64,000 nucleotides of DNA from Halomarina rubra (GCF_023699475.1 NZ_JALXFV010000005.1:452925-516924), one strand, 5' to 3'; counted from the stretch's first letter, positions 18,610 through 22,208 are shown. Notes: generated from the letters alone by a model not told the origin. Made by a program: numbers and translations.

Positions 18610-18703
18610 TCGGAAACCGGTATCGGAAACGGGTCGAAGCCCCGATATCGCCACCTGTGGCGGTTCTCCGAGCGATGTAGTGAGTATCGGAACTTTCGGA
18701 AAC
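18610..18703. repeat. Four TCGGAA direct repeats upstream of the PolB-like cassette
   Basis: TCGGAAAC occurs at 18610, 18623 and 18696, and TCGGAACT at 18687, all in the same orientation in under 100 bases. The copies form two close pairs (13 and 9 bases apart). They lie in the divergent region between the GNAT gene and the cassette at 18747, just above the likely promoter, so they may be binding sites for a regulator. Confidence 0.45.
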
Positions 18704-18746
18704 GACCCTCCTAGCTACATCTGGGACGTGGCTCGTCCGTTGTAGT

Positions 18747-19424
18747 ATGTCAGTCAACACGGCCGTGGCCGGGGTGCCGTCGCTCCCGACGCTCGACACG
18801 GGTGTCACCCTGCTCGACGGGTCGGCCCGCGCCAGCGGCGTCGTCCACTCGCTCGTCGTCGACCACCTCTGCATCCGCCAGGGCGAGGCGGTGTGGGTCG
18901 ACAGTCACGGCACCGCCCGCACGGGCGACCTGCTGAACCTCGCACCGAGTCGACGCTTCCTCGACCGCATCGACGTCGCCCGTGGGTTCACCGCCTACCA
19001 GCACCGAAGCCTGCTCGACGCGCTCGCGACCCGCGTCGACGGCGAGACGGCACTCGTCGTCGTCCCCGAACTCGACTACCCGTACCGCGAGGGCGACCTC
19101 GACGCCGGGGCCGCAGACCGGATGCTCGCCAGCGCGCTCGACCGACTGCGGGCGCTCGCCGACGAGTGGGACGTGCCGGTGTTGGTGACCCGCCACGCGA
19201 GCGGGGACGCCGTCGAAGCCTGCGCCGACCGCGTGCTGACGGTCGTCCCGACCCGACACGGCCCGCGGTTCGTCGAGGACTCCGAGGGGGCGTTCGAGAC
19301 GCTCGTCTACCGCGACGGGCGGACCGTCCAGACGACCATCGCGTTCTGGGCCGGGGTGCTCGCCGAACGCCAGCAGGCCCGCGAGGCGCTCAGACAGGAG
19401 GTGTTGGCGCGTGGGGCGAACTAA
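18747..19424 (+). CDS. RecA-fold protein without Walker A
   Basis: This 225-residue protein has the strand and helix order of a RecA/RadA-type core. A Walker B-like strand ALVVVPELDYPYRE is present near residue 110 and is followed by a long helix and WDVPVLVTRHASGDAVEACA. In the place of a P-loop it reads IRQGEAVWVDSHGTARTGDL, which has no GKT/S. ATP hydrolysis is therefore doubtful. The C terminus is a coiled-coil-like helix (AERQQAREALRQEV). It is the first gene of a three-gene run: the next ORF overlaps it by 14 bases and the PolB-like gene follows. A structural partner of that polymerase is inferred. Confidence 0.6.
   Translation: MSVNTAVAGVPSLPTLDTGVTLLDGSARASGVVHSLVVDHLCIRQGEAVWVDSHGTARTGDLLNLAPSRRFLDRIDVARGFTAYQHRSLLDALATRVDGETALVVVPELDYPYREGDLDAGAADRMLASALDRLRALADEWDVPVLVTRHASGDAVEACADRVLTVVPTRHGPRFVEDSEGAFETLVYRDGRTVQTTIAFWAGVLAERQQAREALRQEVLARGAN
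19396..19403 (+). promoter_or_regulatory. Shine-Dalgarno site deciding the 19411 start
   Basis: AGGAGGTG lies inside the end of the RecA-like gene and 7 bases before the GTG at 19411. It supports the GTG start of the second cassette gene and the 14-base overlap with the first. Confidence 0.6.
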
Positions 19425-19725
19425 CCCGACCTACCGCGACCTGCTGCGGGGCATCGAGGAACGCTGGAGCGACTACCGCCGGGCGCTCCGCCGTGACGAC
19501 CAGTTCGTCCTCGACCGCCTGTTCGAGTACGCCGGCGAGCACGCCGACGCCGCCAGCTACCTCAACCACCGCTCGCCGCTCCTCCCGGTGTTCGTCGCGG
19601 TCGACCTCGAACAGGAGAAGCGCCTGGACGACCTGGAAGACCGCCTCGACACGCTGGAGACGGACCTGAACGAGCGAGGCGTCGACGGCGACGAGTCGAC
19701 CCCGGAGGAGGAATCGGGTCGCTGA
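19411..19725 (+). CDS. Small helical protein of the PolB-like cassette
   Basis: The protein has 104 residues from GTG at 19411. The N-terminal half is mixed helix with aromatic and charged residues (MGRTNPTYRDLLRGIEERWS); the middle holds a Pro-bordered hydrophobic segment LLPVFVAVDLEQEK, and the C-terminal third is a heptad-like coiled coil (LDDLEDRLDTLETDLNERG). It ends in an acidic tail. No catalytic motif is present. It overlaps the RecA-like gene by 14 bases and is 3 bases from the PolB-like gene, so it is probably a bridging subunit (inference). No named family is claimed. Confidence 0.7.
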   Translation: MGRTNPTYRDLLRGIEERWSDYRRALRRDDQFVLDRLFEYAGEHADAASYLNHRSPLLPVFVAVDLEQEKRLDDLEDRLDTLETDLNERGVDGDESTPEEESGR

Positions 19726-19728
19726 GCG

Positions 19729-21906
19729 ATGGTGTTCAAAGTCGACTACCGCGACGGCGACGTGCTGCGCTGGTCGGCCACCGCTTCGGGTGCGAGCGTC
19801 GACCGCGACACGGAGTACACCCCCGCGCTCTACGTCACCGCCGAGACCCCCGCCGCCGTCGGGGACGTCCGCGAGCACCTGGAGCGCCACCCACGGGTCG
19901 TCCGGACGGTGCTGGAGTCCCACCGCCGCGGGTTCCGCTCCGACGTCGAGGAGACCCTGCGGGTCGACGTGGCGTCCATCGACGACGTGACGCCGGTCGC
20001 CCACACCGTCCAGGGGTGGGGCGACCCCGGCACCTACCGCCTGTACGACGTCGACTTCAGCCGGGAGTTCCGCCACTGTCTCGACGAGGGGCTGTCGCCG
20101 GTGCCCGACCGGGACCTCCGGACGCTCGCCATCGAGGCGACGCCGCGGGCGCTGGCTGGAGAGACGCTCGGACAGGTGAGCGTCGACAGCGAGACCGTGA
20201 CGGGCGACGACTGGACACTCGCCACGACGGTCTGTGACCGCATCGCCGAGCGCGACCCGGACGTGCTGGTCGTGAACACCGCCGCGGTGCTCGCACGGGT
20301 GAACCGACTCCTCGGCGAACGACCGGGCGAAGGGGACGCCTACCACCTCGGGCGACTGCCGGGGTTCGAGCAGTTGGCGGGGCGCTCGACGTACGAGAGC
20401 TACGGGCGGGTCGGCCACTCGCCGGCGCGGTACACGGTGCCGGGACGGGTCATAATCGACCGCTCGAACTCGTTTCTCTGGTCGGAGACGAACCTCGCGG
20501 GCTGTCTCGACATGGTCGAGCGGTCGGGGAAACCCCTCCAGGAACTCGGCTGGGCGTCCATCGGCAACGTGCTGACGGCGATGCAGGTCCGGGAGGCACG
20601 GGCTCGCGACGTGCTCACGCCGTGGCACTCCTGGCGACACGAGCAGTTCAAGCGCGCCGGCCAACTCCACGACGCCGACCGCGGAGGGACGACGCTCTCC
20701 CCGAGGGTGGGGGTCCACGAGGACGTCCACGAACTCGACTTCTCCAGTCTCTACCCGAACGTCATCGTCACGCGGAACGTCAGTCCCGAGACGACACGGT
20801 GTGACTGCCATCGCGGACGACCGGACGTGCCCGGTCTCGACTACGCCGTCTGTGACGAGCAGGGCTACCTCCCCGAGGTGCTCGAACCGCTCGTCGACGA
20901 CCGCGACGCCATCAAAGCCCGGCTGCGGGACTGTTCGGACCCCGAAGAGCGCGCGGTCCTCGAAGGGCGGTCGGCGGCCATCAAGTGGGTGCTCGTCAGC
21001 TGTTTCGGCTACCAGGGGTTCTCGAACGCGAAGTTCGGTCGAATCGAGTGTCACGAGGCCATCAACGCCTACGCTCGCGAGATACTGCTGGACGCGAAGG
21101 CGACCCTCGAGCGCAACGGCTGGCGGGTCGTCCACGGCATCGTCGACTCGCTGTGGGTCACCGCTCGTGAGGACGAGCTTCAGGTCCCGCTCGACGCGCT
21201 CTGTACGGCCATCACCGACGAGACCGGTATCCGACTGGAGTACGAGGGGCGGTTCGACTGGGTGGCGTTCGTCCCGCGACGGACGTCGAACACCGGCGCG
21301 CTCACGAAGTACTTCGGCCGGCGGGCCGACCGTCGGACGGACGACCCCGCGGCGTACAAGTTCCGGGGTATCGAGTGTCGCCAGCGGTCGACGCCGCCGT
21401 TCGTCGCCGACGTCCAGCGGGAACTGATCCGGGTGTTCGACAGGACTCGCTCGCCGGAGGCGGTGTGTACGCGGCTGGCGACGCGACTCGCCGACCTCCG
21501 GAACGGCGCGGTCGACCCCTCGGAGCTAGTCGTCGAGAACCGCGTCTCGAAGACGGCCGACGAGTACGTTCAGGCGACGCGTAACGCCGCCGCACTGGAG
21601 CGGTCGGCGTCGTTAGGCGTCGCGAAACACCCCGGCGAGAGCGTCGGCTACGTCGTCGTCGACGACGACGCGGCCGCCCCCGAGCGGGTGAGGCTGGCCT
21701 CCGAAGCTCCCGCGACCTACGACACCGAGTTCTACGCGGGGCTGCTCGTCCGGGCGGCCGAGAGCGTCTGCTCGCCGGTCGGTTGGCGCGAGGCCGACGT
21801 CGACGCGGCGCTCGCCGAGACGACGGACCGTCGACTCACCGACGGGGAGTGGGGCGAGCGAGAGGCACGAGGCGCTCAGGCGAGTCGGTCGGACCCCCAG
21901 GCGTGA
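19729..21906 (+). CDS. Family-B DNA polymerase-like protein with altered active sites
   Basis: The protein has 725 residues, near the size of archaeal PolB. Motif A is intact, DFSSLYPNVI (Asp337). Motif B is KWVLVSCFGYQGF (Lys419), so the usual Asn-Ser becomes Val-Ser and Tyr becomes Phe. Motif C is HGIVDSLW instead of YGDTDS: the first metal Asp is Ile471 while Asp473 stays. In the exonuclease I position LAIEA replaces DIE (Ala134), and no clear ExoII Asp is found. Loss of these carboxylates suggests little or no normal polymerase or proofreading activity. The C-terminal third (thumb and beyond) has VVENRVSKTADEYVQ, usual in PolB. It overlaps PadR convergently by 31 bases. Confidence 0.85.
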   Translation: MVFKVDYRDGDVLRWSATASGASVDRDTEYTPALYVTAETPAAVGDVREHLERHPRVVRTVLESHRRGFRSDVEETLRVDVASIDDVTPVAHTVQGWGDPGTYRLYDVDFSREFRHCLDEGLSPVPDRDLRTLAIEATPRALAGETLGQVSVDSETVTGDDWTLATTVCDRIAERDPDVLVVNTAAVLARVNRLLGERPGEGDAYHLGRLPGFEQLAGRSTYESYGRVGHSPARYTVPGRVIIDRSNSFLWSETNLAGCLDMVERSGKPLQELGWASIGNVLTAMQVREARARDVLTPWHSWRHEQFKRAGQLHDADRGGTTLSPRVGVHEDVHELDFSSLYPNVIVTRNVSPETTRCDCHRGRPDVPGLDYAVCDEQGYLPEVLEPLVDDRDAIKARLRDCSDPEERAVLEGRSAAIKWVLVSCFGYQGFSNAKFGRIECHEAINAYAREILLDAKATLERNGWRVVHGIVDSLWVTAREDELQVPLDALCTAITDETGIRLEYEGRFDWVAFVPRRTSNTGALTKYFGRRADRRTDDPAAYKFRGIECRQRSTPPFVADVQRELIRVFDRTRSPEAVCTRLATRLADLRNGAVDPSELVVENRVSKTADEYVQATRNAAALERSASLGVAKHPGESVGYVVVDDDAAAPERVRLASEAPATYDTEFYAGLLVRAAESVCSPVGWREADVDAALAETTDRRLTDGEWGEREARGAQASRSDPQA

Positions 21907-22208
21907 TACTCCTCGAGCGCCGCGAGGCCGGCGTCGGTGATGGCGTAGTAGTTCGTCCGGCGGTCGATGGTCCCCTTCGAGACCAGCCCGGCGTCGACGA
22001 CCGTGTCGAGGTTCGGGTAGAGTCGGCCGTGGGTAATCTCCTGGCCCGACTGCGCTTCGAGGTCCTCCTTGATGGACTGGCCCGACGGCTGGTCCAGTCC
22101 GGCGATGACGTACAGCAGGTCGCGCTGGAACCCGGTCAACCCGTGGATGGAACGACTGCTCGCACTGGCTCCGGTCCCGGCTGCGACACCTTCGTCTGGC
22201 GTGGACAT
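21876..22208 (-). CDS. PadR-family transcription regulator
   Basis: This 110-residue protein has a Ser/Ala/Gly-rich N terminus, then a winged helix: LTGFQRDLLYVIAGLDQPSG, QEITHGRLYPNLDTVVDAGL, and a wing with RRTNYYAITDAG. This is the standard PadR arrangement, in which a dimer binds an inverted repeat in its target promoter. It lies downstream of the RND exporter on the same strand, with 320 bases between. PadR proteins commonly repress efflux genes, so it may control the RND/surface-protein operon (inference). Its 3' end overlaps the PolB-like gene by 31 bases in the convergent sense. Confidence 0.9.
   Translation of the reverse strand: MSTPDEGVAAGTGASASSRSIHGLTGFQRDLLYVIAGLDQPSGQSIKEDLEAQSGQEITHGRLYPNLDTVVDAGLVSKGTIDRRTNYYAITDAGLAALEEYHAWGSDRLA

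Follow-up and report, generated by a model that had tools for sequence, protein, structure and literature searches.

The bacterial ImuA-ImuB-DnaE2 mutasome serves damage tolerance through an operon in which a RecA-like protein is joined by a protein with a polymerase fold. Closer to the locus considered here is the archaeal PolB2 mutasome, whose iRadA-PPB2-PolB2 operon has been described by Makarova 2014 (PMC4104785) and Timinskas 2025 (PMC11791011), and whose products form, in the published account, a heteropentamer of PolB2, iRadA and three copies of PPB2, the last modelled as a trimer. Polymerase activity and damage-induced mutagenesis have been reported from Sulfolobus islandicus only (PMC8764526, PMC7390963). 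According to the literature the second Asp of motif C is the metal ligand, and the PolB2 protein of that species, Dpo2, which lacks the first, matches the replicase in nucleotide incorporation and acts as an extender in lesion bypass (PMC8764526); the same protein is required for targeted mutagenesis (PMC7390963). A clamp-binding motif at the C-terminus of PolB2 or iRadA is confined to some members of the group, and the neighbourhood of orc and polB2 genes is already on record (PMC11791011, PMC1906834). Deletion of polB2 is tolerated in both Halobacterium (PMC1906834) and Haloferax volcanii (PMC7776575), which fits a role in damage tolerance without proving that role.

Here we set beside these systems a three-gene cassette from Halomarina rubra, lying in what we call the window, the whole 64,000-nucleotide stretch of DNA that was analysed. 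Its protein set joins this known kind, and the mutasome idea is already the published model for it; the cassette is very probably a haloarchaeal PolB2 mutasome operon whose polymerase is probably active. Upstream of it stands a tandem promoter box, seemingly undescribed as far as we could search, which the operon has in common with a stand-alone Orc/Cdc6 gene.

Gene order and its conservation

The cassette comprises three ORFs, all on the plus strand: iRadA (18747..19424), 225 aa with a Rad51/RadA fold and no N-terminal domain; PPB2 of the arCOG07300 type (19411..19725), a small helical protein of 104 aa read from a GTG start; and the PolB2 polymerase (19729..21906) of 725 aa. The first two overlap by 14 bases (19411..19424) and the last two stand 3 bases apart, spacings that agree with those in a preliminary description of this DNA, and the adjacency and common strand of the genes are those of a PolB2 mutasome operon. 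Counting the window, the complete order recurs in 29 of the 32 loci inspected in detail, 27 of them with exactly the 14-base overlap: the arrangement is more than chance. The 14 shared bases are read twice, as the end of iRadA (final residues and stop codon) and as the MGRT arm of PPB2, which may explain why the overlap is so fixed. Three loci (L027, L031 and L033, all from genomes with several polB2 copies) have PPB2 and PolB2 without iRadA, and there PPB2 is without its MGRT arm. The window genome also holds a second iRadA-PPB2 pair with no adjacent polB2 (L042/L077, G000:C15, box at 518806), whose genes overlap, whose PPB2 has the MGRT arm and which is preceded by a TCGGAA box; such extra pairs have been noted in haloarchaea before (PMC4104785). 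Homologues whose genes are not neighbours, which the preliminary description had named as telling against its cassette, are thus to be found in these two minority forms, while linkage dominates. At the 3' end of polB2 in the window a PadR-family regulator gene on the minus strand (21876-22208) converges on the polymerase gene, with a 31-base overlap.

PolB2 was found in 186 of 293 genomes sampled across the order. Many copies sit on secondary replicons, and 154 records in a plasmid collection contain a relative (150 of them typed as non-mobilizable), at least 80% of the protein being covered in 89. A search of viral contigs for PolB2 returned a single distant PolB-like contig and nothing else, an IMG/VR contig filed as viral (L079, 23-1609) whose protein is 33% identical to PolB2 residues 172-691. 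The distribution is patchy, and in some genomes the copies carry stops or are truncated, all of which, with the secondary replicons, would suit a neutral megaplasmid passenger with no present role. Such indifference is nevertheless extremely unlikely, as 159 positions are invariant over 31 relatives at ~60% identity, and both operator and overlap are conserved.

The three proteins and the polymerase site

The first protein passes the Pfam Rad51 cut-off (29.6 bits against 22, with the core covered) and matches profiles of RadA/RAD51 chains at E 2e-9, so that the RecA-type fold originally proposed for it holds. It had also been credited with a Walker B motif in the absence of Walker A; the loss of Walker A stands, whereas Walker B is not intact, its Asp being replaced by Pro107 in the alignment with RadA (LLIVDSLTSHFR / LVVVPELDYPYR). 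A Rad51 homologue that has shed both its N-terminal domain and its ATPase residues is what a PolB2 mutasome contains. The second protein, PPB2, returned no significant family match, and its predicted structure (pLDDT 88, all helix) found no significant counterpart in the PDB with Foldseek (best E 3.1), so the published likeness to sigma factors was not reproduced; its N-terminus, MGRTNPTYR, is the published MGRT motif, complete with Arg3 and Arg9 (PMC11791011). Inspection by eye of the C-terminal ends for clamp-binding motifs gave weak SLxxF/SLxxY sequences in relatives and none that was clear at the ends of iRadA or PolB2 in the window.

The third protein is a family-B polymerase, as had been thought, scoring 1007 bits against the type-B subfamily model NCBIfam NF004418 (cut-off 692) and 97.8 bits against Pfam DNA_pol_B (cut-off 23), and aligning with P. 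abyssi PolB at E 8e-45. Among 31 relatives its active site is a mixture of rigid retention and equally rigid replacement. The D(K/R) motif of the published mutasomes (PMC11791011) is present as D244-R245 (20458..20463, plus strand), with D244 invariant; the motif A catalytic Asp337, in DFSSLYP (20737..20739, plus strand), is kept in 31 of 31; and no relative departs from Lys419 in motif B, nor from Arg392 or Lys396 in the fingers. Motif C, H469-G-I471-V-D473 (21133..21147, plus strand), keeps its invariant His and its second Asp and has Ile for the first, the pattern of most members of the PolB2 mutasome group. The earlier reading of Ile471 in motif C, Val-Ser in motif B and an intact motif A Asp337 was correct, and since HGIVDS is fixed in all 31 relatives these substitutions are characters of the family rather than the decay of one genome. 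In the alignment with P. abyssi PolB the residues that stand at the ExoI Asp and Glu are Glu136 and Thr138. Proofreading is lost; the ExoI loss had been recognised previously but misplaced, having been assigned to Ala134. The window genome also has another B-family polymerase, which is longer and has GDTD in motif C.

Does a polymerase thus altered still polymerise? The preliminary description thought it inactivated-looking and proposed a non-catalytic scaffold, in keeping with the older literature and the original published reading (PMC2527604). On that account a dead PolB2 would serve only to place iRadA, PCNA or a different polymerase at damaged sites, the part that ImuB plays for DnaE2, and the replaced first Asp of motif C, the change of motif B Asn to Val and the lost exonuclease all lend it colour. 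It is improbable all the same, for Asp337, Asp473, Lys419 and Arg392 are invariant in the 31 relatives and S. islandicus Dpo2, with the same I-x-D substitution, is active (PMC8764526). The ImuB type would moreover have lost its catalytic carboxylates, both of which are conserved here, and a search for a Y-family Pfam match in PolB2 gave none, DNA_pol_B being matched instead. We therefore set aside the dead-scaffold analogue of ImuB as the main reading, on the strength of these carboxylates and the Sulfolobus biochemistry. An AlphaFold model of PolB2 built with 15 sequences reached a pLDDT of 57, too low to place metal ligands. With only the first motif C Asp gone, the other catalytic residues invariant and Dpo2 active, the window PolB2 is probably an active, error-prone polymerase rather than a dead scaffold.

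The tandem promoter box and its candidate regulator

A putative operator (18687..18708, plus strand) precedes the start of iRadA by about 60 bases. It is a tandem TCGGAA-CTT-TCGGAA (18687-18701) followed by AACGACC(C), and it abuts a TATA-like region presumed from its position to belong to the operon promoter (18709..18721, plus strand); relatives have CTTAT/CCTAT-like boxes in the same place. A tandem GGAA-type box with the consensus TCGGAA-n(2-3)-TCGGAA occurs in 28 of 29 iRadA promoters, against 0.69 expected from dinucleotide shuffles, a count that describes rather than blindly tests, as the pattern was spotted by eye in those very sequences. It stands 56-61 bases before the start codon (48 in one locus, depending on the start chosen). 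The lone exception, Haloarcula salina (L004), has in its place TTTCACTTTCACTTTCA, which contains TTTCACTTTCA, the UV box of Halobacterium radA1 (PMC2556686), and the three loci without iRadA retain the GGAA tandem before PPB2-PolB2.

Since the pattern was drawn from the same promoters, the independent part of the evidence is the search of genomes for the box. The exact extended form, YCGGAANNNYCGGAAACRMCCC, has 14 sites in 96 family genomes, and its reversed control none; seven of these sites stand immediately before a gene of one of two kinds, iRadA in four cases and a stand-alone Orc/Cdc6 gene in three. A stricter pattern of box plus CTTAT, searched across the order, gave zero matches, being too strict. 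Three of the exact sites (L065, G000:C9:746294; L066, G313:C2:77689; L078, G000:C15:526147) run antisense into a small winged-helix gene at its 3' end, with a PadR-type gene beyond it, and may mark an antisense transcript or what is left of an element. In the window genome itself the box precedes the PolB2 operon, the second iRadA-PPB2 pair and an Orc gene (L040/L074) 384 kb away on the same contig; before another Orc copy, on contig C3, stands a closely similar version. The radA gene of that genome (L112, G000:C12:310359) is preceded instead by the known haloarchaeal UV box, TTTCACTTTCA, so that the TCGGAA and TTTCACTTTCA circuits look separate.

The association with Orc extends well beyond one genome. 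The linked Orc protein has 334 aa; its AAA and Cdc6 lid domains pass the Pfam cut-offs, and a Cdc6_C winged helix is detected only below its own. In at least 15 distinct loci its gene is the immediate upstream neighbour of iRadA. Of 57 family genomes, 34 have Orc together with PolB2, 17 have neither and 6 have one alone (34/2/4/17; Fisher p 6e-9, a value from which shared ancestry was not removed), and 26 of the 34 genomes with both, read by hand, have polB2 and a copy of Orc no more than 10 kb apart. In a paired set the box is found in 22 of 24 Orc promoters and 30 of 31 iRadA promoters, a sharing of the kind seen in an Orc1-2-type regulon, and the two boxes within a locus differ by 0.85 mismatches as against 1.61 in shuffled pairs (p 1e-4, relatedness not removed). 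In genome G204 the promoters of the linked Orc and iRadA share the variant TCTGGCACTTCTGGC, and the unlinked Orc has TCGGAAGAATCGGAA. A different division is seen at L069 (G299:C29), where the Orc gene has TTTCACTTTCAC, resembling the known UV box, and the iRadA operon a GGAA box, which hints at a two-step cascade. Searches of a limited library found no mention of a box common to Orc and iRadA promoters, and two Halobacterium UV papers that we searched name neither polB nor orc among the induced genes.

Together, the shared box and the co-occurrence suggest a damage regulon run by Orc, like that of Sulfolobus Orc1-2 (PMC9738581). The regulatory step from Orc to operator, taken by itself, falls just short of an even chance in our judgement, its main rival being a real operator read by some other regulator, for instance a PadR-type protein. 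That reading is unlikely, if less so than any other alternative weighed here: PadR genes lie downstream of four of the 14 exact sites (L065, L066, L070 and L078), which is what makes PadR the main rival, and the convergent gene at the end of polB2 in the window is of this type, but PadR is no regular neighbour in related loci, and it is Orc that co-occurs with PolB2, has the box in its own promoter, a box that resembles its partner's within a locus. The box might also be no operator at all. Orc proteins bind repeated boxes at origins, and the linkage to Orc/Cdc6 could mean that the complex and its Orc start or regulate replication, with the TCGGAA tandem an origin-type Orc box. Although this option was raised in PMC4104785, we consider it very unlikely, because in nearly all promoters the box keeps its place 56-61 bases before the start codon and upstream of the TATA-like region, because it is present also where no Orc gene is adjacent, and because Halobacterium and H. 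volcanii can do without polB2 (PMC1906834, PMC7776575).

A proposed damage regulon and its counterparts

What an Orc-run regulon would do can be sketched as follows. Damage would activate the Orc protein at the tandem box beside the TATA region, and Orc, the likeliest regulator by analogy with Orc1-2 in Sulfolobus, would then boost its own production along with that of the mutasome. On PolB2, iRadA and PPB2 would assemble; if the published models carry over to these homologues, the MGRT arm of PPB2 would wedge between PolB2 and iRadA near the DNA, and iRadA would sit on a RadA-like oligomerisation motif of PolB2. The palm of the polymerase, with Asp337, Asp473 and Ile471 for the first motif C Asp, would extend distorted or mismatched primer ends past lesions, and such bypass without proofreading would presumably be paid for in mutations. 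On a wider scale, we tentatively propose, at a little under even odds, a haloarchaeal SOS-like regulon. In it a stand-alone Orc/Cdc6 protein, acting through the tandem TCGGAA operator, would regulate itself and turn on the PolB2 mutasome together with the second iRadA-PPB2 pair and a small number of further genes, separately from the TTTCACTTTCA circuit, and operator and linked Orc paralogue would drift together. Should the shared operator prove real, one short box and one candidate regulator would offer a practical way into the control of damage-induced mutation in halophiles, and genetically tractable hosts exist in Haloferax, Halobacterium and Haloarcula.

The preliminary description's wider idea, of a polymerase that works with a RecA-fold protein and a small partner to tolerate damage, is supported as probable and coincides with the published PolB2 model (PMC4104785, PMC11791011). 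Gene set and order are those of the operon of S. islandicus Dpo2, and Dpo2 too has Ile for the first motif C Asp (IID in that species). The MGRT arm with Arg3 and Arg9, the D(K/R) motif, the inactive Rad51 fold without N-terminal domain, the invariant motif C His and the lost exonuclease are common to the cassette and the published mutasomes. There are differences too: the sequence is haloarchaeal; orc1/cdc6 genes are neighbours in the published systems and in relatives of the cassette, whereas in the window genome the Orc gene is not adjacent; the promoter element is a TCGGAA tandem here and ANTTTC in Sulfolobus; and the window proteins have no clear PCNA box at the C-terminus of iRadA or PolB2. 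Sulfolobus Orc1-2 is a non-initiator Orc/Cdc6 protein that regulates its own and other promoters in response to damage, and we propose the like here, though the box sequence differs and the role given to Orc is drawn entirely from co-occurrence and the shared promoter box. The PolB2 proteins of H. volcanii (HVO_A0065, near a radA-like gene) and Halobacterium NRC-1 (near an orc gene) belong to the same family as that of the window; they have been called predicted inactive or of unknown role, and the papers that we consulted describe no operator for them. A widespread haloarchaeal operon, often still labelled an inactive polymerase, moves into an experimentally supported class of translesion machine. 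The likeness to ImuA and ImuB, to which the preliminary description pointed, survives as one of function only: each system joins a RecA-like protein and a polymerase fold in an operon for damage tolerance, but ImuB is a catalytically dead Y-family fold and the window PolB2 a B-family protein with conserved catalytic carboxylates.
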